Part shown: positions 23,220 to 63,518 of the stretch, piece by piece
Layout: every line of letters begins with the position of its first letter
Numbering within the stretch: position 1 is the first letter of the stretch
Source: Hyphomicrobiales bacterium
GTDB lineage: Bacteria > Pseudomonadota > Alphaproteobacteria > Rhizobiales > Rhizobiaceae
Length of the DNA: 64,000 nucleotides
Reading direction: 5' to 3'
Assembly (NCBI GenBank): GCA_900473045.1
Contig: UCKS01000015.1
Coordinates: 1 to 64,000 of the forward strand
Program-made: the position numbers and the translations under genes
The notes under the pieces: model-generated
Seen by the model: the letters and a program-made list of their open reading frames with translations, nothing else
Database searches by the model: none
What the model was told of the DNA's origin: nothing

Positions 23220-23864
23220 ATGGGCTACTGGGACAGCATTGGTAAATCCGATGAGTGGTATACTCCCAAGTATATATTCGAGGCCTTGAACTGCAGGTTT
23301 GACCAAGACGTAGCGTCTCCGGAAAATTGCCCTACCTTCGTTCCCGCAGATGAATTCATTACGCGTGACAGTCTTCAGAAAGACTGGAATGGCTTCGTGT
23401 GGATGAACCCTCCTTTCGGTGGGCGCAACGGAATAACGCCTTGGCTTGAGAAGTTCTTCGGACACGGAAATGGCATTGCGCTAACACCTGACCGGACGAG
23501 TGCGCCGTGGTTTCAAGAGGCATGGGAGGCGGCGGATGCGGTCCTGTTTACCCGAAAAATAAAATTCCTTCGGCCCGACGGGACTACGGGGAACTCGCCT
23601 TCCAACGGCACATCCTTGATGGCGGCGGGTCCATCGGGACGAGCCGCGCTGCATCGCGCCGCCCACAGCGGTCTTGGCATCCTCGCGACGCCGGCCAAAA
23701 TGCACCGGCGAGAAGACGCCGGCCGCGGTTCGCGTCAGGGGCAGACATCCATAGGGAGTGTGGCGATTTCGAAGGTTAAGCCGCTTCATTCGCCGGAATT
23801 TCGAGACAGGAGCGCTTCCCATGCTCCCGACACGCCGGAACATGGGAAGCTCACTGGCGCTTAG
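23220..23864 (+). CDS. Phage-type DNA N6-adenine methyltransferase (Dam-like, pfam Dam family)
   Basis: This 214-residue protein carries the amino-methyltransferase catalytic motif NPPFGGRNGITPWLEKF and the N-terminal segment EWYTPKYIFEAL typical of phage-encoded N6-adenine methylases. LFTRKIKFLRPDGTTGNSPSNGTSLMAAG is also a family block. Beyond about residue 165 the sequence no longer looks like the family and may be a shifted or replaced tail. No restriction enzyme gene is adjacent, so it is an orphan. It overlaps the convergent metallo-beta-lactamase-fold gene by 4 bp. Confidence 0.82.
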   Translation: MGYWDSIGKSDEWYTPKYIFEALNCRFDQDVASPENCPTFVPADEFITRDSLQKDWNGFVWMNPPFGGRNGITPWLEKFFGHGNGIALTPDRTSAPWFQEAWEAADAVLFTRKIKFLRPDGTTGNSPSNGTSLMAAGPSGRAALHRAAHSGLGILATPAKMHRREDAGRGSRQGQTSIGSVAISKVKPLHSPEFRDRSASHAPDTPEHGKLTGA

Positions 23865-24832
23865 ACGCCTTCATAAACCAGTTGGGTAAACAGACCAGGC
23901 GTGATCACAAACTGGCCCCAGTGCTTGTCGAAATCGGCCGTTGGACGGGCGGCGGCCACTTCACCGACCGACATCCCTTTTCCCTTTAACCTCGCGACAT
24001 TGCCGCGCACGGCAACCAACATATCGTGGAACGCCTTGAGCTCCGACTTGTTACTGACGGGAGCGCCATGTCCAGGTATTACGATCGTCTTGTTGTCCGC
24101 AATGGCAAGGCTCTTGGCGCAAGCCGCTATCTTGCCATCGATGCTGCCCCCCGTGGAATAATCGATGAAAGGATAGATGCCATTCCAGTATGTGTCGCCA
24201 GTGTGAAGGATGTTCTGGTCCACGAAATGAACACCGATATCGCTATCCGTGTGTGCGGCCTCATAGCAAACAAAATGTAGCTTGCAGCCTTCGTACTCGA
24301 CCTCTCGGTCTTCCGAAAATGTCTCGGTTGGTATCGCGCCCGCCGGAGACGGCGGGAAGGAGAAATCCCAGTCCTCGACACGTTGGGTCTCCATCAGCCG
24401 CTTCTTGGTGTTTTCGTGAGCGACGATCTTCGCGCCTGCTGCGTGAACCCATTCGTTTCCGTCGGCATGGTCAAAATGCCAGTGCGTGTTCACGAGGTGA
24501 GTTACGGGCTGTTTGCCGATCGCATTCAGCGCTTTCTCGATTTTCGGTCGTGTGGCGGTAATCCCGGCATCTATCATGACCTTTCCCTGTTGGCCCGCGA
24601 AAACTGCGATATTTCCGCCTGATCCCTCAAGGACGAAAACATTTCCACGGAGTTTATGGGTCGTGATGTTCGCTTTGGCCGCTGCGCCGCGGATCATGTT
24701 GACGAGCTGATGCGCTTCGGCGAATGCCTCCCTTGGGGAAAGCCATCCGCCAGCGACGCCGAGTGAAGCCACCCCGACGCAGCACAAGCAGAAGCCGCGA
24801 CGTGAAAGTTTTGGGACTGAAGTTTTGGGCAT
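23861..24832 (-). CDS. Tat-exported metallo-beta-lactamase-fold hydrolase
   Basis: This 323-residue protein has an N-terminal twin-arginine signal (LSRRGFCLCCVGVASLGVAGG) and the MBL zinc motif THWHFDHADG. Downstream zinc ligands lie in CYEAAHTDSDIGVHF and HTGDTYW, and there is a terminal VIPGHGAPVS. It therefore acts outside the cytoplasm. The ATG at 24832 has AAAGGAC nine bases upstream and places the RR motif at a normal distance. An earlier in-frame start at 24889 would bury the signal. The substrate is unknown. Relatives include periplasmic MBL proteins linked to quinoprotein oxidation. Divergent from the regulator at 25118. Confidence 0.87.
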   Translation of the reverse strand: MPKTSVPKLSRRGFCLCCVGVASLGVAGGWLSPREAFAEAHQLVNMIRGAAAKANITTHKLRGNVFVLEGSGGNIAVFAGQQGKVMIDAGITATRPKIEKALNAIGKQPVTHLVNTHWHFDHADGNEWVHAAGAKIVAHENTKKRLMETQRVEDWDFSFPPSPAGAIPTETFSEDREVEYEGCKLHFVCYEAAHTDSDIGVHFVDQNILHTGDTYWNGIYPFIDYSTGGSIDGKIAACAKSLAIADNKTIVIPGHGAPVSNKSELKAFHDMLVAVRGNVARLKGKGMSVGEVAAARPTADFDKHWGQFVITPGLFTQLVYEGV

Positions 24833-25117
24833 GAAGTGTCCTTTCGATGTAAATCTCTGACCAATAGACATGTCATGACGGAACTCCACGGCTTCGGTAT
24901 TGTAAGAAACAGGCGGCTTGATTGACGTGTGCGTGACGAACTCGACACTGTGTTACGTTGTTACGTTCAGTTCGCGTTTGAGCAGGCAGAATTTTCGAGT
25001 TTAAACCTGTCGGCTCGGGCTGAAACTCTTTGCCCCCTCCGAAACACACCAGATTTTACAATAGTTGCTTTGCCTCACGCCTTAAACTGTCTGCTTGTAT
25101 CCAAGGCGAGGCAGCTT

Positions 25118-25684
25118 ATGCGGTATGGTAACGGTATCGATTTCAAGCGGGATTTCACGAACTCGACCGTGATAATTGCCGACCCGTTTATAGAACAGGC
25201 CGCTGCAATAGGCGCTCGGCTCACAACAATGGGGCTTAGGGTCGTCCAGTCCGCCACACTAAACGACGCGGTGTCGAAGTGCCTCGATTTAAACCCTGCA
25301 TACGTGCTGACCGAACTGAGGTTTACCGACGGTTCCGGCCTGAATTTCGTTCGTTGGGTTTCAGCGCGTTTTCCTCTCGCAAAGACGGTTGTCCACACTT
25401 GGTTCGCCGATATCCCGACCGCCGTCGCGGCTACGAAGGCGGGAGCCCAAGACCTTGTCCCCAAACCGACCGACGAGGAATTTCTGATAAACATACTCCT
25501 TAGAGGCTCGGCCCAGATTCCAGCCGAATGCAGGATCGAAAAGCCAACGCGGATACAGCGGGAACATATCGAGCAGGTGATGAAGTTCAGCAAGTCGAAC
25601 GTGTCGATCGCCGCACGGAAGCTCCATCTCCACCGACGCTCGCTGCAGCGGATGCTCAACCGCTACAAAACCCAAACCCCGTGA
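25118..25684 (+). CDS. ActR/RegA-like response regulator with a degenerate receiver
   Basis: This ~188-residue protein has a receiver-like domain followed by a Fis-type HTH. The HTH reads REHIEQVMKFSKSNVSIAARKLHLHRRSLQRML and closely resembles the ActR/RegA/PrrA helix. In the receiver, the normal phosphoacceptor motif (V-D-L-R in RegA proteins) is TELRFTDGSGL, so Asp is replaced by Glu. One acidic-pocket residue is also lost (IIADPF). The conserved Lys remains in LVPKPTDEE. I chose the ATG at 25118 with AAGGCGAGG upstream. The open frame extends to 24929. It lies directly before the nitrile hydratase-like operon and is its likely regulator (inference). Confidence 0.8.
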   Translation: MRYGNGIDFKRDFTNSTVIIADPFIEQAAAIGARLTTMGLRVVQSATLNDAVSKCLDLNPAYVLTELRFTDGSGLNFVRWVSARFPLAKTVVHTWFADIPTAVAATKAGAQDLVPKPTDEEFLINILLRGSAQIPAECRIEKPTRIQREHIEQVMKFSKSNVSIAARKLHLHRRSLQRMLNRYKTQTP

Positions 25685-25885
25685 CTGCCATCGTTCCCGG
25701 CCAACACATCTACTTCGGCTTTTCCAGACGGCGATGGTTAGGCCTTGGCTGCTTCCTCAGCGTGATGACGATCCGAGGAGAAAAACGACAGCACATGCTC
25801 ATGCTCCCGCCGATGCTGAATATTACAATAAAGCGCAGTGGCAGGCGGGTTCTATTATTCTCATCATTTGCGATGGAGTAATACC

Positions 25886-26230
25886 TTGGAAGCAACACCC
25901 CAGCTCATCGACAGCGTTGTTCCCGCGCTAGGCGAACTACCTGTTTTTTTCGTCGGAGACGCCGTCAATATTTTGACCAGATCTCCGATCGGACACTACC
26001 GGATGCCGACCTATCTCAGAGGGAAGAGCGGCACTATCGAGAAAGTCATCGGCACGAAGGCCGTAGACAACGAGGAAGAGGGCTACGGACGCAACGCCGG
26101 CTCCAAGGGACACTACTACCGGGTTGCTATCCCAATGACCCAAATCTGGCCCGACTACATTGGATCACCCAATGACGGCCTGAGAATCGAAATCTTTGAG
26201 AACTGGCTGGAGAGAGCTTCCCATGTCTGA
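25886..26230 (+). CDS. Nitrile hydratase/thiocyanate hydrolase beta-type subunit, C-terminal-half protein
   Basis: This ~114-residue protein corresponds to the C-terminal half of the nitrile hydratase beta subunit (SH3-like barrel). Key blocks are FFVGDAVNILTRSPIGHYRMPTYLRGKSGTIEKV and GHYYRVAIPMTQIWPDY, then LRIEIFENWLE. A TTG start at 25886 is preferred because GGAGTAA sits six bases upstream and family similarity begins there. The open frame from 25838 adds unrelated residues. It overlaps the next gene by 8 bp. The split beta subunit recalls thiocyanate hydrolase and three-subunit nitrile hydratases. Confidence 0.85.
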   Translation: MEATPQLIDSVVPALGELPVFFVGDAVNILTRSPIGHYRMPTYLRGKSGTIEKVIGTKAVDNEEEGYGRNAGSKGHYYRVAIPMTQIWPDYIGSPNDGLRIEIFENWLERASHV

Positions 26231-26912
26231 CCACGACAGCAGTCACGACCATGATCATGATCATGATCACGACCACGACCACGATCACGATCACGATCAC
26301 CCTCATGCGCCAATAACCGCTGACGAGAAGCCGGGCTACTACGACGTGATGGAAACGGCGGTCCGAGAGCTTCTCGTTGAGCGCAAGCTGTTCGGCGCAG
26401 ACGAGATCAGGCGGCAGATTGAAGTCCTCGATTCCCGCACGCCCGCTCTGGGTGCGAAGGTGGTCGCACGGGCCTGGACGGACCCCGATTTCAAAAGCAG
26501 GCTTTTGGCGAACGGGCGATCAGGATGCGAAGAGATGGGGATCACTTTCTACGACGACACACAGTTGATCGTTCTCGAAAACACACCCGACGTCCATAAC
26601 CTGATCGTCTGTACGCTGTGCTCATGTTATCCCCGCCCTGTCCTTGGACTTCCACCGGACTGGTACAAACTCAAGCCCTATCGCGCCCGGGCGGTCTACG
26701 AGCCCCGCGCTGTCCTTGAAGAGTTCGGAACTCACATTCCGGATGACGTGGAAATTCGCGTGAGCGATTCGACAGCGGTCATTCGCTACCTAGTGCTGCC
26801 GATGCGGCCCAAAGGCACCGAGGCCCTCTCTGAGCAGCAGCTCGCGGACCTCGTTACACGCGACGCCATGATCGGCGTAATCCCTGTAAGCTATCTGAAG
26901 GAGGCTGCGTAA
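26223..26912 (+). CDS. Cobalt-type nitrile hydratase alpha / thiocyanate hydrolase gamma-like subunit with His-Asp tail
   Basis: This 229-residue catalytic subunit contains the metal-binding claw VCTLCSCYPRPVLGLPPDWYK. In CTLCSC two cysteines are normally oxidised and bind non-corrin Co(III). Thr at the second position favours cobalt over iron types. The N-terminus carries (HD)9, unusual and absent from classical alpha subunits, suggesting metal storage or loading. The start MSDHDSS at 26223 follows the ribosome site GGAGAG. Its stop overlaps the next start (TAATG). Substrate (nitrile, thiocyanate or other) cannot be told from sequence. Confidence 0.9.
   Translation: MSDHDSSHDHDHDHDHDHDHDHDHDHPHAPITADEKPGYYDVMETAVRELLVERKLFGADEIRRQIEVLDSRTPALGAKVVARAWTDPDFKSRLLANGRSGCEEMGITFYDDTQLIVLENTPDVHNLIVCTLCSCYPRPVLGLPPDWYKLKPYRARAVYEPRAVLEEFGTHIPDDVEIRVSDSTAVIRYLVLPMRPKGTEALSEQQLADLVTRDAMIGVIPVSYLKEAA
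26244..26300 (+). repeat. His-Asp codon repeat, nine HD units plus a final His
   Basis: The alternation of CAY and GAY codons is a 6-bp repeat with synonymous variation (CATGAT, CACGAC, CACGAT). The variation indicates the protein sequence, not just the DNA repeat, is preserved. It encodes a likely Co/Ni/Zn-binding tail. Confidence 0.95.
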
Positions 26913-27256
26913 TGGGGTCCGAAGCACTTGTAAGAAAGCTTCCGAACGACATCGGAGGCGATGCAGCAGGCAAGATCGAACGCGTCGAGCACGAGTTGTT
27001 GCCGTGGGAGAAGCGTTGCCATGCGCTTGCTGACGTCTTGGACTTTCACAAGATCATCAACACGGAAGAGAAGCGCCGCGGTGTCGAATCGCTCGGTTCA
27101 GAGATGATAGGCAAGCTTTCGTACTACGAACGCTGGATTGTGGCGTTCGCAAACATCCTTTTTCAAAAGGGTATTTTGACACCAGGTGAACTCGCCGTGA
27201 AGATGCAAGAAGTCGAAGCCAGGTACACCGCGCCCGAGACCTCCCATCATGGGTGA
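26912..27256 (+). CDS. Nitrile hydratase/thiocyanate hydrolase beta-type subunit, N-terminal-half protein
   Basis: This 114-residue helical protein resembles the N-terminal half of nitrile hydratase beta. The segments LLPWEKRCHALADVLDF and EMIGKLSYYERWIVAFANILFQKGILTPGELAVKMQEV match the (Y-x-RW)-(L/I)xAL-E-G-(I/L)-(I/L)T-x-EL block of the family. Proteins of this size also occur as nitrile hydratase activators, so an accessory role is possible. Together with the 25886 gene it would rebuild a full beta subunit, in reversed gene order. It overlaps the MIP gene by 8 bp. Confidence 0.83.
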   Translation: MGSEALVRKLPNDIGGDAAGKIERVEHELLPWEKRCHALADVLDFHKIINTEEKRRGVESLGSEMIGKLSYYERWIVAFANILFQKGILTPGELAVKMQEVEARYTAPETSHHG

Positions 27257-28025
27257 ATCTCCTGGCCATCCAGGTGTTGCGAGCTTTTTTGAGCTTGATG
27301 CGCGGCTTCCCGTGCTTCGACGGGCGTTTGTCGAGGCCGTCGGAACCGCGCTCCTGGTAGTGGCGATGGTGGGTGCGGGATTGGCCGCCGAGCCATATTC
27401 CAAAGACGCGCCCTTGGTGGCTTCCATCCTCGTGGCCTTCTCCATTGCAGGCGCGCTTGTCGGGTTGATCGTCGCATTAGGAAAAGTGTCCGGCGGACAT
27501 TTCAACCCGCTGATCACGATTTCACAGTGGCTGACGGGCGAGCGGGGTCTTGTGTGCGCCGTTTCTTACATCGTCGGCCAATTGTTGGGTGGCCTGATTG
27601 GCACCTTTGTCGCCATGCTGATGTTCTCTCAGGCTGGCCGAATACACCTATCGGGCTATCCGTCCACTGGCCTCGTAGTGAGTGAGGTCGTCGCATCCAT
27701 GGGACTTATGACAGTTGTGCTCGGCTGCGCTCGGAGCACCAAATGGGAGACAGGACCTTTTGCTGTCGGCGCTTGGCTGGTCGCCGCGATCATGGCCACG
27801 CCATCGGCATCGTACGCGAACCCGGCTGTCACGTTGGCGGCGGTCTTCGCCAGCGGCCTAGTGGCTCTATCTCCGCAGAACGCCGCGATTTTCGTGCTGG
27901 CGCAACTGGCGGGAATGCTGATGGCCGTCGGCATCAATATCGTAGTGTTCCATATGGGAAGCACTAACGGCAAGGGAGCGGGAATGACGGTCCCGGAACC
28001 AATCGTCGAAGTGCGACTGCAATAG
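27249..28025 (+). CDS. MIP-family (aquaporin/glycerol facilitator) channel
   Basis: This ~258-residue protein has six hydrophobic helices and two half-helix loops. The first loop is GGHFNPLITI (canonical NPA replaced by NPL) and the second is SYANPAVTL. The altered first motif changes the pore constriction and suggests a solute other than, or besides, water. The start at 27249 overlaps the end of the nitrile hydratase-like gene. Its position suggests movement of the enzyme's small neutral substrate or product (for example an amide or nitrile), which is inference. Confidence 0.86.
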   Translation: MGESPGHPGVASFFELDARLPVLRRAFVEAVGTALLVVAMVGAGLAAEPYSKDAPLVASILVAFSIAGALVGLIVALGKVSGGHFNPLITISQWLTGERGLVCAVSYIVGQLLGGLIGTFVAMLMFSQAGRIHLSGYPSTGLVVSEVVASMGLMTVVLGCARSTKWETGPFAVGAWLVAAIMATPSASYANPAVTLAAVFASGLVALSPQNAAIFVLAQLAGMLMAVGINIVVFHMGSTNGKGAGMTVPEPIVEVRLQ

Positions 28026-28230
28026 CGACCGGACTGGCAACCCTTCGAATGGTGGTTGACCCGTCCGGTGGGCTCGCCATTTTGCGCCGCCAGTGACCGA
28101 ATTGTGATGCCAGTGTTCGGCGGATACCCTTTCTCGTAAGAAGTCACGAAAGCAGACAAGTCGATATCGAGGGCATGGTTAGCCACGCGGTCGGCAGTGA
28201 AACCCGCTCAACCAGACAAGGAAACTAGAA
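28026..28230. other. Gap between MIP gene and cbtB, no riboswitch recognised
   Basis: cbtB genes are often preceded by a cobalamin riboswitch, so I looked for its core elements (the B12-box-like GCCAGGAGACC and the preceding CCGCAACTG-type motif). They are not visible. Only isolated GCCAGTG words occur. A promoter for cbtBA is possible here. Confidence 0.4.
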
Positions 28231-28416
28231 ATGAATAAAACACAGGTTCTCTATCCGAACTCGACCTCTACATCGAAACTATCCCGTGCCCTGTCGCTGT
28301 TGAGCGCGGGTTTTCTCGGCGTACTGGTTGTCGGCGGTGTCGGTTTCGCAGACATGCCTGCCGTCCATGACGCAGCGCATGATGTCCGCCATTCCCTCGC
28401 TTTCCCTTGCCATTGA
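28231..28416 (+). CDS. cbtB: CbtB, small subunit of a cobalt transporter
   Basis: This 61-residue single-span protein has a hydrophobic helix (LSLLSAGFLGVLVVGGVGFADM) and a histidine-rich tail, PAVHDAAHDVRHSLAFPCH, matching the CbtB family's C-terminal metal-binding motif. AAGGAAAC lies about eight bases before the ATG. CbtB works with CbtA in cobalt uptake. It is followed by cbtA eight bases later. Confidence 0.87.
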   Translation: MNKTQVLYPNSTSTSKLSRALSLLSAGFLGVLVVGGVGFADMPAVHDAAHDVRHSLAFPCH

Positions 28417-28424
28417 GGTTAGCC

Positions 28425-29177
28425 ATGAACCTGTTTCGCACACTGGTCTTTTCCGCAGTTTTCGCTGGCGGCCTCGTCGGTGCCTTGGCATCGGCAATGC
28501 ATATCGCGGTTACCGTTCCACTCATTCTCCAGGCCGAAACGTTCGAGAAGCCGGAGCCTGCGGCCAACGTTTCGGCGCACGAACATTCCGGCGCACAGGT
28601 GCATTCCCATGAGCCCGTTAAGGCTGCCGAATCTGGCGAGATTGAATTTGGCCGCAACGCCTTTACTGTTATAGCAATGATTCTCGCCTACATCGGGTTC
28701 GCGCTGCTGCTAAACGTAAGCGCTGAAATGACCGGGGGATTCGGCGATGTCAAAGCTGGTTCCGGCTGGGGCGTCGCGGGCTTCCTTGTGTTCAGTCTCG
28801 TGCCGGCACTGGGTTTGCCGCCTGAGTTGCCAGGGATGCCTGCTGCAGATCTTTTTTCTCGTCAGGCGTGGTGGATCGCAACAGTTGCCTGCACCGCCGG
28901 CTCGCTTTGGCTTGCATCTTCCACCAAGTTCGGCTGGCGCTGGCCGATCGCGGCCGTTGTTGTCGCTTTACCATTTGGTTTCGGTGCACCCCACCCCTTG
29001 AACACCGCAAGCGAGGTGCCGACTTCACTGCATTTCCAGTTTGTGGTGTCCACGCTCCTTGTAAGCTTCGTCTCGTGGCAGATCCTTGGTGTATCGCTCG
29101 GGTGGCTGCGCTCCAGATCGTGGAACGACACCGCTGGCCGAGAAGATGCCTCGGCACGAAGAACTACAGCCAGATAG
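28425..29177 (+). CDS. cbtA: CbtA, membrane subunit of a cobalt transporter
   Basis: This ~250-residue protein has about five or six hydrophobic helices and the family start MNLFRTLVFSAVFAGGLVGA. It has an extracytoplasmic histidine cluster (HEHSGAQVHSHEP) and the block VPALGLPPELPGMPAADLFSRQAWW, typical of CbtA. An ATG at 28407 is also in frame, but 28425 has GAGG upstream and starts the homologous sequence. Its location after a cobalt-type hydratase suggests it supplies that enzyme's metal. Confidence 0.87.
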   Translation: MNLFRTLVFSAVFAGGLVGALASAMHIAVTVPLILQAETFEKPEPAANVSAHEHSGAQVHSHEPVKAAESGEIEFGRNAFTVIAMILAYIGFALLLNVSAEMTGGFGDVKAGSGWGVAGFLVFSLVPALGLPPELPGMPAADLFSRQAWWIATVACTAGSLWLASSTKFGWRWPIAAVVVALPFGFGAPHPLNTASEVPTSLHFQFVVSTLLVSFVSWQILGVSLGWLRSRSWNDTAGREDASARRTTAR

Positions 29178-30970: not shown

Positions 30971-31978
30971 TCAGTGATACCCCTCGCCCGCTCTGACTTT
31001 CCCGCGGAACACGTAATAAGACCAGGCGGTGTAGGCCATTATGAAGGGAATGATGAACAGCGCGCCGACCAAAGCAAATCCGAGGCTCTGAGGTGGCGAG
31101 GCCGCTTCCCAGATCGAGATGCCGGGCGGGACGATATTAGGCCACATGCTTATAGCCAGTCCGGAATATCCGAGGAAAAGGATCATGAGCGTAAGGACAA
31201 AAGGCAAGGCATGACTTTCACTCGACAACGTCTTTGAAAGAGCCCAAGTCGCTAGAACTACGAGGATCGGTACAGGCGCGAAGAAGACAAGGTTTGGGAA
31301 GGAGAACCACCGCTGCGCGATCGGGGGGTGAGAGAATGGCGTCCAGAGACTGACAATGAAGATAGCGACCAGCAATATGGGTACAAAGCGTAGAGAAATT
31401 TTCCTCATTTTACGCTGAAGATCTCCTTCCGTCTTCATCACCAGCCATGTCGCTCCAAGCAAGGCATATGCGAGGAGAAGGGCAATACCCGTGAAAACGC
31501 TGAAAGGCGAAAGCCAGTCGAGCAACCCTCCCGCGTACGCGCCGCCCTCAACCTTGAAGCCATCGATGAACGCGCCGAGAGAAACACCCTGACAGAAGGT
31601 CGCCGTGTAGGACCCGCAGGCGAAGGCCTTGTCCCACAACCCTTTATGCCCTTCGTCCGCCTTGAAGCGGAACTCGAACGCGACCCCTCTCCATATAAGT
31701 CCAACCAGCATCAAGATAAGGGGTAGGTATAAGGCGCTCAGGATCACCGAGTAGGCGATCGGAAAAGCGGCCAGCATCGCCGCACCTCCGAAAACGAGCC
31801 AGGTCTCGTTTCCGTCCCAGACGGGCGCGACGCTGTTCACCATGGTGTCCCGGTCGGCTCGGTCGGCGACGAAGGGGAACAGGATGCCGATACCGAGGTC
31901 GAAGCCATCCATTACGACGTACATCATCAAACCGACGCCTATGATGATCGCCCATAGAAGAGGAAGATCGATACCCAT
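30971..31978 (-). CDS. cioB: Cytochrome bd-type (CioB/CydB) quinol oxidase subunit II
   Basis: This 335-residue membrane protein has about eight or nine helices, starting MGIDLPLLWAIIIGVGLMMYVVMDGFDLGIGIL, the conserved CydB/CioB N-terminus. The blocks NSVAPVWDGNETWLV and GLIWRGVAFEFRFK are diagnostic. The start at 31978 has AAAGGAC upstream. The longer open frame to 32014 overlaps cioA. The oxidase reduces oxygen with quinol and resists cyanide in the Cio subtype. Confidence 0.93.
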   Translation of the reverse strand: MGIDLPLLWAIIIGVGLMMYVVMDGFDLGIGILFPFVADRADRDTMVNSVAPVWDGNETWLVFGGAAMLAAFPIAYSVILSALYLPLILMLVGLIWRGVAFEFRFKADEGHKGLWDKAFACGSYTATFCQGVSLGAFIDGFKVEGGAYAGGLLDWLSPFSVFTGIALLLAYALLGATWLVMKTEGDLQRKMRKISLRFVPILLVAIFIVSLWTPFSHPPIAQRWFSFPNLVFFAPVPILVVLATWALSKTLSSESHALPFVLTLMILFLGYSGLAISMWPNIVPPGISIWEAASPPQSLGFALVGALFIIPFIMAYTAWSYYVFRGKVRAGEGYH

Positions 31979-31979
31979 G

Positions 31980-33407
31980 TCACTTGTCCTTTCGGCCCGG
32001 GATCGGGTCCACATTGTCGGGGGCGGCCGAAAGCGGTCGGGAGGGTCTTGGCGACTGTCCCTGCTCCCGAGGGGTGGCGGTGTGGTCTGTCTCCAACGGC
32101 CCCTTCCCGACCAGCTTCAGCATGTAGCTCACACCGAGACCGAAGACGCTGAAGTAGACGACAACGAAGATTACCAGGGTGAGCGACAAGGCCAGAGCGG
32201 AATGGTTCGAGACAGCGTCCTCCGTGCGCATAACGCCGTACACGACCCAAGGCTGTCGTCCGATCTCGGTTGTGTACCAGCCCGCTAGAAGCGCGATAAG
32301 ACCGGAGGGTCCCATGACCGCAGCGAAGCGGAGGAAAATCCGGTTTTCAAACAATTGCCCGCGCCACCGGAGAAAAAGGCCCAAAGCGCCCAGAAGCAGC
32401 ATAAGCATTCCCAACCCCACCATGACGCGGAATGACCAGAACAGGACAAGCGAGTTGGGACGGTCGCGCCTGTCGAATTCGGCAAGACCCTTAAACTGGC
32501 CACTTAGGCTGTGGGTCAGGATGATGCTGCCAAGGCGCGGTATCTCTATGGAATAACGGGTCTGTTCCGTTTCCATGTCGGGTACGCCGAACAGGATGAG
32601 AGGAACGCCTTCTCCTGGCTTATTGCGCCAATGTCCCTCCATCGCGGCGATTTTCGCGGGCTGGTGCTCCAGGGTGTTCAGCCCGTGAGCGTCTCCTACG
32701 ACGATCTGCACCGGGGCAACGGCCAGCACCATCCACATGGCCATCGAAAACATCTTCCTGGTACGTTTATTGTCGTTCCCCCGGAGCAGGTGCCAGGCTC
32801 CCGATGCCCCTACGAAGAGAGCGGTACTGAGGAAGGCGGCGATCGTCATATGAGCGAAGCGGTACGGAAACGATGGGTTGAATATGACCTTGAGCCAGTC
32901 GACAGGGACTACCCTGCCGTCGACAATCTCGAACCCCTGCGGGGTCTGCATCCAGCTGTTCGAAGCGAGGATCCATGTCGTGGATATAAGGGTTCCTAGC
33001 GCGACCATAGTTGTTGCGAAAAAGTGAAGACCGGGGCCCACCTTGTTCCATCCAAATAGTGCAACACCGAGAAAACCCGCTTCCAGAAAGAACGCGGTCA
33101 GCACTTCATATGCGAGCAGGGGACCTGTAATCGGACCTGCGAATGCCGAGAAAAAGCTCCAGTTAGTTCCAAATTCGTAGGCCATAACAAGACCGGACAC
33201 CACGCCCATCGCGAAATTGACGGCGAAGATCGTTGACCAGAAGTGATAGAGGTCCCGATAGACGGGGTCTTTTCTCGTAAGCCATAAACCCTCCAGTACG
33301 ACGAGATAACTTGCGAGCCCGATAGTTATCGCGGGGAATACGATGTGAAACGAAACGGTAAACCCGAACTGGATCCTAGCTAGCTCGAGCGCGGTTAAAC
33401 CGAACAT
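31980..33407 (-). CDS. cioA: Cytochrome bd-type (CioA/CydA) quinol oxidase subunit I
   Basis: This 475-residue subunit carries heme ligands, with conserved blocks ALELARIQFGFTVSFHIVFPAI, AYEFGTNWSFFSAFAGPITGPLLAYE and SNSWMQTPQGFEI. GRQPWVVYGVMRTEDAVS is typical of CioA. The quinol-binding Q-loop is short, as in cyanide-insensitive members rather than E. coli CydA. The start at 33407 (MFGLTALELAR) has AGGAG upstream. The stop is one base from the cioB start. No anaerobox is visible upstream, so regulation differs from that of the cbb3 genes. Confidence 0.93.
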   Translation of the reverse strand: MFGLTALELARIQFGFTVSFHIVFPAITIGLASYLVVLEGLWLTRKDPVYRDLYHFWSTIFAVNFAMGVVSGLVMAYEFGTNWSFFSAFAGPITGPLLAYEVLTAFFLEAGFLGVALFGWNKVGPGLHFFATTMVALGTLISTTWILASNSWMQTPQGFEIVDGRVVPVDWLKVIFNPSFPYRFAHMTIAAFLSTALFVGASGAWHLLRGNDNKRTRKMFSMAMWMVLAVAPVQIVVGDAHGLNTLEHQPAKIAAMEGHWRNKPGEGVPLILFGVPDMETEQTRYSIEIPRLGSIILTHSLSGQFKGLAEFDRRDRPNSLVLFWSFRVMVGLGMLMLLLGALGLFLRWRGQLFENRIFLRFAAVMGPSGLIALLAGWYTTEIGRQPWVVYGVMRTEDAVSNHSALALSLTLVIFVVVYFSVFGLGVSYMLKLVGKGPLETDHTATPREQGQSPRPSRPLSAAPDNVDPIPGRKDK

Positions 33408-34009
33408 GTCTATGTCTCCTGACGACGCTCGGAATCCAGAGCCGGACACCGTGTGCAAAGAACGAAGGTGGGCGCACCTTTCGACCACGTCGCACCATTT
33501 GGCTAAGCCCGCTCCGGGGTCTTGTAAGAATCGGCTCCCGGCAAGACCTTCCGCAACGCCTGTCCCCGGCGTTGGACCCGATGCGGGTTTCCTTTGAGAT
33601 CGTGGAGTTTGTAACAGCGGGGTATCCGGTGAGGACTCCGCTGAAGTGCGCGCTGCCGCCAGCCATGAGATCCAGCCTCATTTCGAACGTCCTGATGGAT
33701 CGACCGACCCTTGTCTCTTCTCCGATAAGACAATAGTCAGGTGGGAACCGCTCGGCCGCCAGCGTCTCCGTAGGACTTTAGTCCGAAGAGATTTTGAGAG
33801 TTTCAAACTCTCTTGACAATACCCTGAATGAACTGTCCTACGAGGTCGTGCAGCATCTCGAAGTCTGCAGTCGCCTCGCCCAGCGCGACCGCTGGGTCAC
33901 AAAGCCGACCGCACTTAGCGCGTTCGGTGTCGATTTACCGACGGCCGGGTGTTGCAGGAAGTTTGCTGACGATGGTTAAGTCGGTTTGGAAATCTCACGG
34001 CGATGATAA
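33408..34009. other. Intergenic stretch with a possible gene relic
   Basis: On the minus strand from about 33777 to 33500 a frame stays open and reads protein-like (ETLAAERFPPDYCLIG, then GGSAHFSGVLTGYPAVTN), but it lacks a start codon before an internal Met at 33681. A palindrome GAGAGTTT-C-AAACTCTC lies at 33796-33812, followed by TTGACA. I can assign no function. Confidence 0.4.
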
Positions 34010-38097: not shown

Positions 38098-39597
38098 ATG
38101 AAGATACTTCACTTCGAAGAGTTCGAGATGGACCTGCAAGGTCGGAGCCTCAAAAAATCTGGCGAGTACATACGTATCGGTTCCCGCGCTTTTGACCTCC
38201 TTTGTGCCTTGGCCTCCCGGGCCGGGGAGGTTCTGTCGAAGGTCGAACTCACTGCTGCCGCCTGGCCCGAAACCCACGTCGAGGAGAGCTCGCTTAGGGT
38301 GAACATTGTCGCTCTTCGTAAGGCTCTTGATGACGACCGTAGCCGCCGACTGATTGAGAATGTCGCCGGCCGCGGTTACACATTCACCGCGCCTGTTCGT
38401 AGGTCCGATAGCTGGCGGTCCCAGACGCCGTCGCCCGCCGTCCAGCAAGTCGATTTCGTACCAGTAGGCCTCTCAAGGCTTATAGGACGCGACCAGCTTA
38501 TCGATCACTGGGCGAGCGAGATTGGCCAAGGGATTACCACCATCGTCGGTCAAGGCGGCATCGGCAAAACATCGGTGGCGATCCAGATCGCTGGCGACGT
38601 TCAAAGTGCGTTCGAAGAGGTGCATTTCTTGGATGTCGCCGACGGCTCCCAAGTCAACACCTCGCCACTCGCAATCGCTCTTCGGGGCGACGATGCCGCA
38701 GCTGCGGATGCCTTTCAGAGCGCCGTCAACAGCTTCTCAGGCAAGGCTGTTCTGATCATACTCGACGGATGTGAAGTCTCGATCGACAGGTGCGCTCAGG
38801 TCGTGGAGGCGATGGCCGATCGAAACCCCAAAATAGTGATCCTCGCGACAAGCCGTGAGCCTCTTGGAATTATGGGAGAGAGAGTCCGCCATCTCCATGG
38901 ACTGACTATACCGTCTCCAAATCAATCCGTCGCTGATATCTCTGCCTTCACGGGGATGGAACTCTTCGCGGATCGACTTTCGAACGTAGCGGAAGATTGC
39001 GGAATCGACACTCCACACGGCATGGCTTTGGCCGCAGAGATCGTTAGGAAAACCGACGGAAACCCGCTTGCGATCGAACTTGCCGCCTCCCGTGTTACAG
39101 ACCTCGGGCTTGAGAACCTCATTGCTTCGCTGGATCGTCCCTTGCGGACGCTGCGCCGTGGCAGTCGAACTTCACACCCGCGTCAACGGACTTTGAGAGC
39201 GAACATCGACTGGAGCTACGATCTGCTCAATGAGGACGAAAAGAGTCTTCTTGCCCACCTTTCAGTCTTCGAAGATAACTTCACCAGGGAAGATGCGTGG
39301 AACATGATTGGACCGCATCTCGAAATCGGCGGGTTCGAGACGTCATTTGATAGGTTAGTTGTGAAATCGCTGATAGTGAGAGATCCGACGCTCGGAACGC
39401 ACGTCCTGCCCCGTCTGATAGGGGAATACGCCCGCGAAAAGCTGAACTCTTTCGAAACTGTTGAACGCGATCTCGACATCATGGACACGGTTGCGATCCT
39501 CCGTGAGCCCAAATGCCAGCGCATGTTCAACTCTAGGCCCAACTCCATAAAGGCGACACCTCTGTCTTCCCGAGTGATAGGCACCAGGGCTGCATAA
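38098..39597 (+). CDS. Winged-helix/STAND ATPase regulator, C-terminally truncated paralogue
   Basis: This is a 499-residue protein with an OmpR/PhoB-type winged helix (residues 1-100, with SSLRVNIVALRKAL and IENVAGRGYTF). It is followed by a STAND/NB-ARC-like NTPase with Walker A GQGGIGKT (about 151-158), Walker B VLIILDGCE, sensor ATSREPLG and the GNPLAIELAASR block. The two paralogues at 40846 and 55683 are ~915 residues and carry a long C-terminal helical-repeat region that is missing here. The sequence loses similarity near residue 460 and ends one base before the stop of the convergent response regulator gene. It is probably truncated by rearrangement. Confidence 0.85.
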   Translation: MKILHFEEFEMDLQGRSLKKSGEYIRIGSRAFDLLCALASRAGEVLSKVELTAAAWPETHVEESSLRVNIVALRKALDDDRSRRLIENVAGRGYTFTAPVRRSDSWRSQTPSPAVQQVDFVPVGLSRLIGRDQLIDHWASEIGQGITTIVGQGGIGKTSVAIQIAGDVQSAFEEVHFLDVADGSQVNTSPLAIALRGDDAAAADAFQSAVNSFSGKAVLIILDGCEVSIDRCAQVVEAMADRNPKIVILATSREPLGIMGERVRHLHGLTIPSPNQSVADISAFTGMELFADRLSNVAEDCGIDTPHGMALAAEIVRKTDGNPLAIELAASRVTDLGLENLIASLDRPLRTLRRGSRTSHPRQRTLRANIDWSYDLLNEDEKSLLAHLSVFEDNFTREDAWNMIGPHLEIGGFETSFDRLVVKSLIVRDPTLGTHVLPRLIGEYAREKLNSFETVERDLDIMDTVAILREPKCQRMFNSRPNSIKATPLSSRVIGTRAA

Positions 39598-40227
39598 TTA
39601 TGCGTTCCTTTGAGCGAGTGCCTCCGCCTTTTTCACGAGGTCGGCGACCGAGCGGACCTGCATCTTTTTCATAACGTTTGACCTGTGAAGCTTCACTGTC
39701 ACCATACTAATCCCAAGTTGGCCCGCTATCTGCTTGTTCATCAGACCGTTCACTACTGCCGCCATGACTTCAACTTCCCTCGGCGTGAGGGTGGCCCGGA
39801 GCTTCTCGATGTCAGACTTGCCTTGTGTCTCGGACCGAATGATTTCGTCTTTTTTGATAGCGCCTGTCACCGCGTCGATTAAATCTTGCTCACGGAAAGG
39901 TTTTGTAAGGAAATCGACAGCTCCTGCCTTCATCGCCCTCACGCTCATGGGTATATCGCCGTGTCCAGTCATCACAATAACTGGCATCCGGTTGCCGGCC
40001 TTTTGGAGATCTGCCTGGAAATCGAGGCCACTCGTTCCCGAAAACCTCACGTCGAGCACGATGCAGCCCGGTGTGTCGAGATTGTCTGATTGGAGTAGAG
40101 CCTTCGGGGAATCATAGGAAACCGCGTCAATGTCGATCGACTTGAAGAGATCGAGGAGCGACAGCCGCACCGACTCGTCGTCGTCCACAACGCGAACCCG
40201 TGGAGTTGAGGGAGAATGGTTTTCCAA
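39598..40227 (-). CDS. FixJ/NarL-type response regulator
   Basis: This 209-residue two-domain regulator has a receiver with VRVVDDDESVR, phosphoacceptor Asp in CIVLDVRFSGTSGLDF, Thr in IVMTGHGDIPMSVRAMKAG and Lys in FLTKPF. It has a LuxR-type HTH (LTPREVEVMAAVVNGLMNKQIAGQLGISMVTVKLHRSNVMKKM). It resembles FixJ but is intact, unlike the fixJ relic at 13258. Whether it can act on the FixJ-like site upstream of fixK is untested. It is convergent with the truncated STAND regulator, with no gap. Confidence 0.92.
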   Translation of the reverse strand: MENHSPSTPRVRVVDDDESVRLSLLDLFKSIDIDAVSYDSPKALLQSDNLDTPGCIVLDVRFSGTSGLDFQADLQKAGNRMPVIVMTGHGDIPMSVRAMKAGAVDFLTKPFREQDLIDAVTGAIKKDEIIRSETQGKSDIEKLRATLTPREVEVMAAVVNGLMNKQIAGQLGISMVTVKLHRSNVMKKMQVRSVADLVKKAEALAQRNA

Positions 40228-40845: not shown

Positions 40846-43593
40846 ATGACCCTTTTGCAGTTTGATGAGTATGAGGTGGACCTCGACCACAGGCGATTGA
40901 CCGAAAGCGGCCGGCCTTTGCGTCTTGGCGGGCGTGCCTTCGACATTCTATCCGCGCTCATTTCGCGGGCAGGTGTAGTCGTGACCAAAGAGGAGTTGAT
41001 TGACCTCGTGTGGCCGACGACCACGGTAGACGAAGGGTCTCTCAGGGTACATCTGGTCGCACTTAGGAAAACTCTGGGGGATCAGGCGAAGCACTACATT
41101 GAGACAATACCGGGCCGCGGATACCTTTTTGCTGGAATTGTCCGGCAATCGGTACGCGGCGGAATGACTTTGCAGCAGGAGGTCAGCTTAGACTCTGATG
41201 TTCCTTTGTCCCTGCCCCGCGTTCCCAAGCGGCTCATCGGCCGGGATGATTTTATCCGTTCCAGCCTAGATCTGCTTAAAACGGCGCGCCTGCTCACGTT
41301 CGTTGGTCCCGGTGGGATTGGAAAGACGTCGGTAGCGGTGGTGTGCGCTCAAAATCTAGCTCTGCGCAAGCGGGTCGCATTCATAGACCTGGCGGCCATC
41401 TCAGAAGGTGACAAACTCCTTCCGACCTTGGCTGCGCAACTAGGCCTCAACGCCTTCGGAGAAGACGTCCTGCCCGGTATTTTGGTGGAGCTGTCCAAGA
41501 CAGAGACGCTTCTGGTCCTCGACAGCTGCGAGCGCATCGTCGATGCAGTGGCTAATTCGTCCGAGGCGCTTCTCCGCGGCTCGCCTACAACGCAAATCCT
41601 GGCTACCAGCAGAGAGCCGCTAAGGTCTTCAATGGAAAGGGTCCGACAACTCCCGCCGCTTGAATTCCCGCGTGACGGTGAAGAGATTTCGGGGACCGAT
41701 GCTTATCCGGCCGTCGAATTGTTCGCCTCGCTTGCCGCTCTCTCAGGCGAGAACATCGACATGACCGAAAGGAGCAGCTTGGAGCTTGCTGCAGACATCG
41801 TGAGAAGGCTCGATGGGATACCACTCGCGATCGAGCTCGCTGCCGCCCGAACGTTCGACATGGACCTCCAGACCCTTCATCGCTCCGTAGCAGATCCTAT
41901 TTCCTTGCTTCGCCGCGGTCGACGGACCGCGCCTCCCCGGCAGCAGACGCTCCGCGCGACGCTCGACTGGAGCTTTGCGACATTATCGGAGCTCGAAAAG
42001 GAAATCCTGCTTCGTCTTTCTGTATTTGCAGGTTCATTTTCGCCTGAGGCCGCCATGGCCGTAGCAGGCGTTGGTCTGCCGGAGGAAAGCTTCCACGAGG
42101 CTTTCGACGGCCTTTTCCTCAAATCTTTAGTTGTTGTCACCCGCCATGGTGGAAGCTTTCGGCTCTTGGGCACGACACGTGACTATGCAGGGCAAAAACT
42201 AAAAGTCGCCGAGTTTGCCCGCGCCTGTAAGCGCGCACATGCGCTCTACTGCAACAAACGACTGGAGGAGACTTCGCGGGAATGGCCAACGACGGAACCC
42301 TCCAAATGGCGGGCGGACAATGAGGGCATTCTCAACGATCTGCGTAGTGCTTTGATCTGGGCCTTCGGTGAAGACGGCGACGAAATGCTCGGCATCGAGC
42401 TTTCGGCAAGTTCGAACACTCTTTGGGTGCAGCTTGGCCTGATCGCCGAACAGCTTGAGATATCTGAGCGCGCCCTCAGGTTGTTTGAGCGTCGGAGTGT
42501 AAGAAACCCGGACCTGGAGATGAAACTCCGCATGTCATATGGGAGCGCATTATACCACACCGAAACCTTCGAACGAAACGTGGAAGTCATGTCGGAGTAC
42601 CGTCGGGTTCTCCAGCTCGCCAAAGATGTCGCAAATACGAACAAGGTAATGAGAGCCATCGTCGGGATCGCGGCCATCCATACATCGAATGGCGACTATC
42701 AGGATGCGATTGACCTTGTTCACAGCTTCGACGAAGAGTTCGATGCATGCATGCCGCAAGCTAGAAGCCGGATTTTGAATCATAATTACCATTATATCGG
42801 CGATTTCAACAACGCGATGCATCACGCATCTATCGCTCTGAGCCCGCAACCGGGTCTCGGAGTTACTCCGCCCAACAGCGGAAGCAGTTACGATCCCAGA
42901 GTAAGCGCCCTATGCACCGTCGTTAAGACCCTTTGGATACAGGGGAGATATTCCGACGCTAAAACAGCGCTCATCGAAACGCTGGACGAAGCCCTCGCGC
43001 AGGACCATGCGATATCTACCTGCCTGTATCTGGCAGTTTCCGCATGTCCCACGGCTTTCGGTATGGGCGATTTTGCACTGGGCGGCCGACTTCTGGAAAT
43101 CCTCGGCGAGGTCTCGACGAAAAACTCGTTGCTGCGGTGGAGTGAGTGGAGCTCCTGCTATGCTACCGTATTACGAGCGGTCGAGACAGACGACGCCTTA
43201 TTATTCGACCGGGTGGTCGGCAAGGCGAAAGGCACGCTCTTCGAGAATTGCCTGATTATCGATGGACGGCTCGCGAATGCCGAAACGCTCGACCGGGTAA
43301 TACCTGAGGGCAACTGGTGTGGCGCGGAAGTTCTCCGCCTTCGAGGCGAGCTCATGATGAATAACTCGCCTTTAGAAGGCGAAGCGCTTCTGCTCAGGGG
43401 GTACGAACTCGCCGGCAGGCAATCGGCAGCGACATTCCAGCTTCGATGCGCCGCCAGTCTTCTGAGCAATTCCTCCCCGAACCAGGTCACTTTATCGCTA
43501 GCCAGGCTTTCGCAAGCGCTCGGCTCAGTGGAACAGGACGAGAGCGTGGAAGATATCGCTGTCGCCAATGCCCTGCTAAAGCGGTTTTCATAA
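40846..43593 (+). CDS. Winged-helix/STAND ATPase transcriptional regulator with helical-repeat C-terminus
   Basis: This 915-residue protein has an OmpR-type winged helix at residues 1-100 (RAFDILSALISRAG, GSLRVHLVALRKTLGD, IPGRGYLFAG). A STAND NTPase at about 125-420 has Walker A GPGGIGKTS (153-161), Walker B LLVLDSCE, ATSREPL and GIPLAIELAAAR. About 500 residues of helical, TPR-like repeats follow. No DNA-binding LuxR domain is present, so the N-terminal wing is the output. Such proteins use the repeat region to sense a ligand or partner and ATP to switch state. It is similar along its length to the 55683 protein. Confidence 0.9.
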   Translation: MTLLQFDEYEVDLDHRRLTESGRPLRLGGRAFDILSALISRAGVVVTKEELIDLVWPTTTVDEGSLRVHLVALRKTLGDQAKHYIETIPGRGYLFAGIVRQSVRGGMTLQQEVSLDSDVPLSLPRVPKRLIGRDDFIRSSLDLLKTARLLTFVGPGGIGKTSVAVVCAQNLALRKRVAFIDLAAISEGDKLLPTLAAQLGLNAFGEDVLPGILVELSKTETLLVLDSCERIVDAVANSSEALLRGSPTTQILATSREPLRSSMERVRQLPPLEFPRDGEEISGTDAYPAVELFASLAALSGENIDMTERSSLELAADIVRRLDGIPLAIELAAARTFDMDLQTLHRSVADPISLLRRGRRTAPPRQQTLRATLDWSFATLSELEKEILLRLSVFAGSFSPEAAMAVAGVGLPEESFHEAFDGLFLKSLVVVTRHGGSFRLLGTTRDYAGQKLKVAEFARACKRAHALYCNKRLEETSREWPTTEPSKWRADNEGILNDLRSALIWAFGEDGDEMLGIELSASSNTLWVQLGLIAEQLEISERALRLFERRSVRNPDLEMKLRMSYGSALYHTETFERNVEVMSEYRRVLQLAKDVANTNKVMRAIVGIAAIHTSNGDYQDAIDLVHSFDEEFDACMPQARSRILNHNYHYIGDFNNAMHHASIALSPQPGLGVTPPNSGSSYDPRVSALCTVVKTLWIQGRYSDAKTALIETLDEALAQDHAISTCLYLAVSACPTAFGMGDFALGGRLLEILGEVSTKNSLLRWSEWSSCYATVLRAVETDDALLFDRVVGKAKGTLFENCLIIDGRLANAETLDRVIPEGNWCGAEVLRLRGELMMNNSPLEGEALLLRGYELAGRQSAATFQLRCAASLLSNSSPNQVTLSLARLSQALGSVEQDESVEDIAVANALLKRFS

Positions 43594-53199: not shown

Positions 53200-53209
53200 G
53201 TGTCCGTCC

Positions 53210-53659
53210 TCACAACGAAATAGAGTGAATCGCTTCGCGAATTCTCACGTAGGTTCCACAACGGCAGATGTTTCCCGCCATGGCATCATCGATATCCGTG
53301 TCGGATGGCCTTGAGTTTTCGCTCAGAAGCGCCGCGGCGGACATGATCTGCCCGGACTGACAGTAGCCGCACTGAACGACCTCCTTTTCCAACCACGCTG
53401 CCTGGACTTTCGCGCCGACCGCGGTATCGCCGATGCCTTCGATCGTTGTGATCTTCTGACCGTCGACGGCGTCTACGGTCGTCTGGCAGGACCTGACCGC
53501 AACGCCGTCCAAATGAACGGTGCAAGCACCGCACTGGGCGATGCCGCATCCATACTTCGTTCCGGTCATCCCCAGGACGTCTCGCAGAACCCAAAGCAGG
53601 GGCATGTCGTCAGGAATATCGAGATTGTATTCGCTTCCGTTGATTGTCAGCTGCTTCAC
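53210..53659 (-). CDS. 2Fe-2S subunit of molybdenum hydroxylase, IorA-like (copy 1)
   Basis: This 149-residue two-cluster ferredoxin subunit has the plant-type motif [15 protein letters not shown] ... SCQTT and the C-terminal motif [10 protein letters not shown] ... [12 protein letters not shown]. It carries electrons from the molybdenum centre. A GTG start at 53659 ([18 protein letters not shown]) with AAGGGG upstream is preferred. The frame upstream to 53713 is unrelated. There is no signal peptide, so it probably travels with the Tat-tagged large subunit. Confidence 0.9.
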
Positions 53660-55472: not shown

Positions 55473-55682
55473 GCGTTGTAGGTTGGCTCGATTGCGCGGT
55501 TTCCAGATCGATACCCGCAGCGTCACGGAGCTCTTCAGAATTCTAATATGTGACCATGATCCAAATCGTCGTAGGAAAGCGTTGTCAAAATGGGCTCAAA
55601 CAATTCGTGATTTGTTGCAAGTCGTTGCCTGAGATGCGATATCGACAACACTATTATGTTAGCGGGATCTGCGGCGAACACG

Positions 55683-63515: not shown

Positions 63516-63518
63516 CGA

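Follow-up and report, generated by a model that had tools for sequence, protein, structure and literature searches.

Gene content of the locus

We analysed a 64,000-nucleotide stretch, hereafter the window, from a Hyphomicrobiales bacterium of the family Rhizobiaceae (assembly GCA_900473045.1, contig UCKS01000015.1, positions 1 to 64,000, forward strand). It carries a compact gene module in which three subunit genes of a predicted cobalt-type enzyme of the nitrile hydratase (NHase) superfamily adjoin genes for an aquaporin-fold channel of the MIP family and a cobalt importer. The beta subunit of the enzyme is split, and its two halves (betaN and betaC) are encoded separately on either side of alpha. 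Six genes form the module at this locus (second bit values are cut-offs):

25886-26230, + strand: betaC, the C-terminal NHase beta half as its own gene (PF02211, 59.9 against 27.7 bits, E 3.3e-16)
26223-26912, + strand: alpha, with a CTLCSC claw (PF02979, 266.1 against 27.2 bits, E 1.5e-79)
26912-27256, + strand: betaN, the N-terminal NHase beta half (PF21006, 59.9 against 21.5 bits, E 3.2e-16)
27249-28025, + strand: MIP (aquaporin-fold) channel with NPL and NPAV motifs (PF00230, 77.7 against 25 bits, E 1.4e-21)
28231-28416, + strand: CbtB cobalt transporter subunit (PF09489; TIGR02459, 75.9 against 64.4 bits)
28425-29177, + strand: CbtA cobalt transporter subunit (PF09490; TIGR02458, 209.5 against 182.9 bits)

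All six products exceed the Pfam gathering scores, and CbtA and CbtB also exceed the NCBIfam cut-offs. The betaC gene starts at a TTG codon with GGAG upstream, the betaC, alpha, betaN and MIP frames overlap by 8, 1 and 8 bases in turn, and 205 bp separate MIP from CbtB. An earlier, sequence-only reading of this DNA had named these genes, the TTG start at 25886, the overlapping arrangement and the 205-bp gap, and all are present as it described them. It had also read NPL in place of NPA in the channel, which holds for the first motif, the second being NPA followed by Val, and had given alpha a CTLCSC motif and a His-Asp tail; the motif is there, and the His-Asp run sits at the N-terminus instead.

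Searches of the PDB return cobalt nitrile hydratases as the best solved relatives of alpha. The matches to betaC are C-terminal halves of NHase beta subunits together with the alpha chain of thiocyanate hydrolase (SCNase; 2dd4_A), a cobalt nitrile hydratase being the best, and the best match to betaN is the SCNase beta chain (2dd4_B, E 7.3e-9). The CTLCSC claw of alpha is followed by YPR, whose Arg occupies the place of SCNase gamma-136.

Recurrence and distribution of the module

Relatives were collected as 163 loci with an alpha match, of which 38 with identical alpha ends were dropped to leave 125. The clade to which the window belongs (see below) is represented by 26 loci, window included; one of these, L090 (loci are given as L numbers where they need to be told apart), was too short for the alpha tree. 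Plasmids were searched separately: 178 records match alpha, 16 of them with one place covering at least 80% of it, and twelve plasmid loci were examined (the near-copies H5 and H8-H10 were left out).

In Agrobacterium tumefaciens, A. pusense and Rhizobium AB2/73, betaC, alpha, betaN, MIP, DUF302, CbtB and CbtA stand in one row, and Rhizobium WYJ-E13 has the same row without DUF302. Because the same genes adjoin on these Rhizobium and Agrobacterium plasmids, the grouping is more than chance. Variants occur: CbtBA is divergently oriented in R. ruizarguesonis and in R. leguminosarum, both with a cytochrome P460 gene behind, and R. leguminosarum lacks MIP. Rhizobium sp. C104 (L090, 7950-11100) has an IS21 element within alpha, followed by MIP and DUF302, and no CbtBA was found in the stretch examined. 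The loci of Azospirillum, Microvirga and Polymorphobacter have a HoxN/NiCoT importer. Streptomyces NBC_01176 has the order betaN-betaC-alpha-MIP-unknown protein-HoxN, and a second Streptomyces locus (L036) was also recovered, as were 13 further loci from genomes of the host's order. The module recurs in two phyla. Planktothrix, which falls outside the clade, carries just the three subunit genes. Among the 26 loci, 23 have the order betaC-alpha-betaN and two betaN-betaC-alpha; the betaN of L090 is on the far side of its insertion.

Distribution is patchy. Matches at E 1e-75 were found in 6 of 346 genomes of the family, the host genome included, and a betaN search of 26 genomes of the genus returned the host copy and two matches of 31% identity. 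This patchiness, together with the many plasmid copies, suggests horizontal spread of the module. Viral contigs yielded no relative of alpha. Both Streptomyces loci encode a conserved protein between the channel and the HoxN importer (L093, 9493-9930; L036, 7588-7980); the L093 copy has 146 residues and no Pfam match. Plasmid annotations mostly name both beta halves "SH3-like domain-containing protein", a label that hides their nature as enzyme subunits.

Linkage to a channel and to cobalt importers

The module's relatives were sorted by script into the clade, 60 other split rows (53 with both beta halves as separate frames, 4 with betaN only, 3 with neither), seven SCNase-like rows, and 32 "fused" rows (18 with both halves in one frame, 14 placed there by only betaC being recognised beside alpha). 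Linkage was counted in loci with enough flank (26/26 in the clade, 28-30/60, 5/7 and 19-20/32 in the other groups), using profiles built from the clade's own genes and with no control on the detection of distant MIP or importer proteins in the other groups. On this footing 20/26 clade loci have a MIP gene no more than 5 kb from alpha, compared with 0/28 other split, 0/5 SCNase-like and 0/19 fused loci. An importer gene (CbtA, HoxN or CbiM) lies within 3.5 kb in 18/26 clade loci, and in 0/30, 0/5 and 2/20 of the other groups, respectively, both fused cases being CbiM. A plasmid search with MIP points the same way: among the best 40 of 82 records, the 8 with at least 48% identity all lie at the module locus, and the other 32 fall below 40%.

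The linkage of channel and importer that the sequence-only reading had pointed out is thus found to recur, and its counter-case, an alpha grouped with ordinary two-subunit enzymes and relatives without linked MIP or Cbt genes, is not found. One part of its account has to be widened. The importer at the window is of the Cbt type, as stated, but Cbt is one of three families in the clade (CbtA in 8, HoxN/NiCoT in 5 and CbiM in 5 of the 26 loci, the CbiM name resting on a Pfam match in L138). Since three interchangeable importer families occupy the same place, we argue that what is conserved is the supply of cobalt itself and not one protein.

Placement within the nitrile hydratase superfamily

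The Pfam scores place the three enzyme subunits in the superfamily, and its metal claw and two beta arginines (CTLCSC, beta-91 Arg and the Arg of GHxRxP) are present in 26/26 loci. These profiles, the separate halves and the claw bear out a split-beta, cobalt-type hydratase. The one-piece beta of classical two-subunit NHases is lacking, betaC and betaN being separate genes that flank alpha. At family level, alpha narrowly misses the NHase alpha profile TIGR01323 (246.7 bits, cut-off 249.85) and falls well below the cut-off of the SCNase gamma profile TIGR03887 (220.7 bits, cut-off 291.45). Among three relatives scanned with TIGR01323, a Streptomyces member passes (267.5 bits) and two miss (249.6 and 248.4 bits). 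A TIGR03887 search of 240 genomes of the class gave no match at E 1e-80, a result without a positive control and hence uninformative.

In an alpha tree of 128 rows, 25 rows including the window, two of them from Streptomyces, fall on one side of a branch with support 99/41, and the 23 rows that remain without the Streptomyces pair have support 100/98. SCNase gamma (2dd4_C) groups with seven other rows, five of them mycobacterial, in a group of eight with support 100/100, and the window lies outside it. Rows with a one-piece beta, together with the Pseudomonas putida, Bacillus and Pseudonocardia references, occupy another branch (91/85), onto which seven rows sorted as split also fall (L025, L031, L080, L160-L163). 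The remaining split rows are scattered over several branches. The sequence-only reading knew split beta subunits from SCNase and a few three-subunit NHases; with 60 further rows sorted as split, they are commoner than that. Because these rows spread over several branches, a split beta is, as judged from the tree, common and no marker of SCNase. On these profile and tree placements membership of the superfamily is secure, as is the conclusion that the enzyme is, by family, not an SCNase.

Two side observations concern related enzymes. The host genome carries a second NHase alpha (contig C47, L142) of CYPW type, which groups with ordinary enzymes in the tree. The seven SCNase relatives (L066, L070, L071, L072, L076, L077 and L081; five mycobacterial) encode betaN and betaC in one frame, have an activator-like gene behind alpha, and carry the claw CALCSC in 7/7.

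Basic residues in the predicted substrate pocket

SCNase has Arg at gamma-136 and at beta-90, two places that are said, from work by Yamanaka and others in 2013, to line the pocket and to set selectivity; the solved variant 3vyg_C differs from 2dd4_C by Arg136 to Trp. At the gamma-136 place, Arg is found in 26/26 clade loci, whereas the fused rows have Trp in 31 of 32 (Val in the other); the 60 other split rows have Arg in 50, Lys in 7 and other residues in 3. The beta-90 place is more distinctive. The clade has Lys in 26/26 and the SCNase relatives Arg in 7/7, while the 57 other split rows have Leu in 43, His in 2, Arg in 1 and Lys in none, and the 16 fused rows with a betaN match have His in 2 and neither Lys nor Arg. 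Lys thus occurs at beta-90 in 0/80 rows outside the clade. Arg at both places is found in the seven SCNase relatives and one further row (L028, split). The neighbouring beta-91 Arg is kept in all 106 rows counted, and a betaN Cys-His pair is invariant in the clade. None of the pocket residues sought was found in PMC9297474.

The module enzyme therefore carries basic residues at both SCNase places, Arg at gamma-136 and Lys replacing Arg at beta-90. Because of this pair, a small anion is the likeliest substrate as read from the alignments, and the pair is our main reason for favouring one.

Probable dedicated cobalt supply and possible role of betaN in metal loading

Regulation by a cobalamin riboswitch is known for CbtAB importers. 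The host genome has two CbtA genes, 37% identical to each other. The second (contig C83, 40395-41129) lies behind a cbtB-like frame directly preceded by a cobalamin riboswitch (39698-39966), whereas the module copy has none: no Rfam match was found in the window or in seven relatives with CbtBA. Because the second cbtBA sits behind a cobalamin riboswitch and the linked copy does not, the linked pair is likely a dedicated cobalt supply for the enzyme; the same contrast lowers the probability of a B12 function for it, which had been considered. The riboswitch scan that included the control loci gave one match, an ar35 sRNA in L138.

Many cobalt nitrile hydratases require activators (PMC3511329). 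At every one of the 26 loci, the sole match to a profile built from the activator-like proteins of the seven SCNase relatives is the betaN frame, the separate activator gene of SCNase loci being absent there, and a betaN search of the host genome finds one place. The betaN protein begins with the D-x-G-G motif of SCNase beta, which the seven activator-like proteins lack, and it is most likely a structural beta half, as judged from these comparisons. It may also help to load cobalt, since no separate activator is found at the locus and betaN is the only activator-like gene there.

The MIP channel

The model of the channel has the aquaporin fold (mean pLDDT 77.6; Z 25.1, root-mean-square deviation (rmsd) 2.5 over 214 residues to 3ne2_C). 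The MIP profile score is exceeded; the canonical pair of NPA motifs, the second one followed by Arg, is not seen. At the position after the second motif, which is Arg in AqpZ, 17 of the 18 aligned non-Streptomyces rows carry Val and one carries Leu, and 16 of these rows read NPL at the first motif. Both Streptomyces rows show NPA and NPAR, and their identity to the window channel is 27%; among the best 15 of 39 plasmid records, the nearest other matches of the Streptomyces channel reach 38%. Separate recruitment of a channel in Streptomyces is possible on these alignments.

Other genes near the module

Two further genes adjoin the module in the window:

23861-24889, - strand: MBL-fold (metallo-beta-lactamase) hydrolase with twin-arginine start SRRGFCLCC (PF00753), divergent from the operon
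25118-25684, + strand: ActR-like regulator with Glu at the phosphoacceptor place (NF033791 ActR/PrrA/RegA, 102.3 bits, cut-off 250)

The hydrolase, found within 5 kb of alpha in 13/26 clade loci, and DUF302, near alpha in 11/26, were absent from the earlier account. The twin-arginine start is present in 12 of 13 aligned hydrolase sequences, and the His and Asp residues of what is presumably the metal site are invariant; the protein may act on the substrate outside the cytoplasm. Its model (mean pLDDT 78.7) matches best the chlorothalonil dehalogenase 6uxu_A (Z 25.6, rmsd 2.7 over 262 residues, 17% identity), then a Burkholderia superfamily member, beta-lactamases and alkylsulfatases. Lactamases, alkylsulfatases and the dehalogenase all match, so the fold leaves the function unsettled. 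Relatives of the hydrolase occur in 234 plasmid records, 111 of them from Sinorhizobium, a genus in which no more than 5 records match alpha at all; its distribution is much wider than that of alpha, which makes it an optional partner of the module, more frequent than the regulator.

The regulator had been proposed as part of the unit. Its Asp to Glu change stands (TELRFTDGSGL, compared with LDVRFSGTSGL in a FixJ-like receiver of the same window, 39598-40227), but its profile gives only 22-28 bits, in 5 of 25 relatives, and a role as a conserved module part was rejected on these weak matches.

Searches for neighbouring genes used between one and three seeds per family, namely amidase, sulfite oxidase, hemerythrin, bd oxidase, cupin, chlorite-dismutase-like and alpha/beta-hydrolase, and a given seed found relatives in 0-4 of 26 loci; an amidase in L084 lies about 7 kb off, beyond the 5.5 kb limit used. 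Genes for a cydAB-type bd quinol oxidase lie 1.8 kb from cbtA (30971-33488, - strand), and their DNA matches three records, one annotated as the cyanide-insensitive cioB. The window also encodes two molybdenum-hydroxylase large subunits (51049-53244 and 61362-63518, - strand); L133, L134, L136 and L141 have relatives of these (34-49%) some 3.4 kb upstream of alpha. A phage-type Dam methylase domain (PF05869; 23220-23864, + strand) has a frame that ends against the hydrolase gene. Related large regulator-like proteins are repeated in the window (38098-39597, 40846-43593 and 55611-58409); L083, L137, L138 and L139 have homologs of them some 7 kb upstream of alpha, as does L090 for two of the three.

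Interpretation and alternatives

We propose, with a probability of roughly 0.6, that the locus encodes a self-contained cobalt hydratase or hydrolase module acting on a small, probably anionic substrate with a C-N bond, thiocyanate being the first candidate; for the substrate itself to be a thiocyanate-like anion we allow about four chances in ten. CbtBA would bring in Co2+ for the enzyme, and alpha would bind the metal in its CTLCSC claw, two cysteines of which would, by family, be oxidised. Together betaN and betaC would make the pocket-lining half, with betaN perhaps also assisting metal loading. Water activated by Co(III) would then attack the C-N triple bond of thiocyanate (giving COS and ammonia) or, as further candidates, of cyanate, cyanide or a carboxylated nitrile. 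The channel, lacking the usual filter Arg, would pass a small solute of the reaction, whether substrate, ammonia or another product. The core of the sequence-only reading, a hydratase-channel-importer module with its substrate left open, stands and has gained its recurrence in the 26-locus survey. A bolder version, in which the locus is a pseudohalide unit whose own-subfamily MIP conducts thiocyanate, a related anion or the product, betaN doubles as a cobalt chaperone and one operon does all of this, is speculative and in our view unlikely.

Several observations weigh against the proposal. MIP is absent from 6/26 clade loci and an importer from 8/26, and Cbt linkage is not unique, since CbtBA lies about 5.5 kb off in L049, a locus with a one-piece beta, and CbtB is present in the SCNase-like L076, a locus without the length needed for counting. 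Neither L049 nor L076, which were meant as controls, has a riboswitch beside CbtB, so that the riboswitch contrast rests on the host genome, with no riboswitch-linked Cbt seen outside it. Alpha is closer to the P. putida cobalt NHase (96/173 residues identical) than to SCNase gamma (80/180), and the Streptomyces member exceeds the NHase alpha cut-off. Arg or Lys at gamma-136 in 57/60 other split rows means that this place alone is not thiocyanate-specific, and L028 has Arg at both places while lying outside the clade; the clade was moreover collected by similarity, and 26/26 does not count 26 independent events. The absence of an amidase of the seed's family within 5.5 kb at all 26 clade loci speaks for the proposal, but with such a gene in only 4/19 fused loci the contrast is weak. 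Finally, MIP channels generally conduct neutral solutes, and an anion fits this poorly.

Some of these points suit a small-nitrile hydratase with a split beta, which would act on a neutral nitrile, use the channel to pass nitrile or amide, and keep the basic residues for structural reasons. The closer resemblance of alpha to cobalt NHases, the shortfall of only 3 bits on TIGR01323 with a Streptomyces member passing, and a channel filter without Arg, which suits small neutral solutes, are all as this account would have them; the replacement of the Trp found at gamma-136 in fused loci by Arg throughout the clade, the invariant Lys at beta-90 and the want of a linked amidase of the tested family make it, in our view, less likely than not. 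Another reading is detoxification of cyanide or cyanamide, with HCN or H2NCN entering by the channel and being hydrated to formamide or urea; such small neutral solutes fit a MIP pore. The bd-type quinol oxidase close by, with its cioB-annotated match, would fit, but that oxidase was not found near alpha in 25 relatives and HCN crosses membranes unaided, and we consider this quite improbable.

The two remaining explanations can be largely set aside. Were MIP and Cbt chance neighbours serving osmotic and B12 functions, their absence from some clade loci would be expected; the overlapping genes, linkage that recurs with three importer families and with MIP types as dissimilar as those of the window and Streptomyces, and a separate riboswitch-linked cbtBA in the host genome make this very unlikely. 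Descent as a true SCNase ortholog with rearranged genes draws on the three subunits, the His-rich N-terminus of alpha, the basic residues at both pocket places and the SCNase beta chain as best PDB match of betaN. Against it stand the TIGR03887 score, a position outside the fully supported SCNase group, the order betaC-alpha-betaN and the lack of a separate activator-like gene at the locus, and we give it hardly any weight.

If the proposed pseudohalide unit holds, it would represent an independent origin of thiocyanate-type hydrolysis in the NHase family and assign a MIP channel to such a reaction, of which we know of no description. In the recurring gene set a non-corrin cobalt enzyme is linked with a channel and with cobalt supply, which opens three questions to experiment: what use a hydratase has for a MIP channel, whether half of a split beta can take the place of the activator when cobalt is loaded, and whether a pair of basic residues in the pocket steers the NHase scaffold towards small anions.

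Comparison with known systems

Two systems share some features with the module. The toyocamycin NHase ToyJKL is likewise encoded by three genes with a split beta, but serves antibiotic synthesis, and the Rhodococcus rhodochrous NHase has a linked cobalt importer, NhlF, but is a two-subunit enzyme with an importer of the NiCoT type. A literature search found no description of a module combining a split-beta hydratase, a MIP channel and a cobalt importer, and the passages of one paper that deal with nitrile hydratase and aquaporin genes do not link them (PMC3557214).

The cobalt NHase of P. putida (3qxe) resembles the module enzyme in the fold and claw of alpha, in alpha identity (96/173) and in the conserved beta arginine. 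It differs in its one-piece beta, in Trp at the gamma-136 place and Phe at the beta-90 place, and in its separate activator P14K (PMC3511329). The SCNase of Thiobacillus thioparus (2dd4) shares with the module the CTLCSC claw, a beta subunit divided between two chains, an N-terminus rich in His, and basic residues at gamma-136 (Arg in both) and beta-90. Unlike the module enzyme, it falls in another clade (80/180 alpha residues identical) and has Arg where the module has Lys at beta-90. A published SCNase tree is rich in Alphaproteobacteria and was drawn from matches of at least 50% identity to the T. thioparus query (PMC10098168). The gene order of SCNase is alpha-beta-gamma-activator (PMC7193024), as against betaC-alpha-betaN in the module; SCNase is without the added MIP channel and importer, and the module is without a separate activator.

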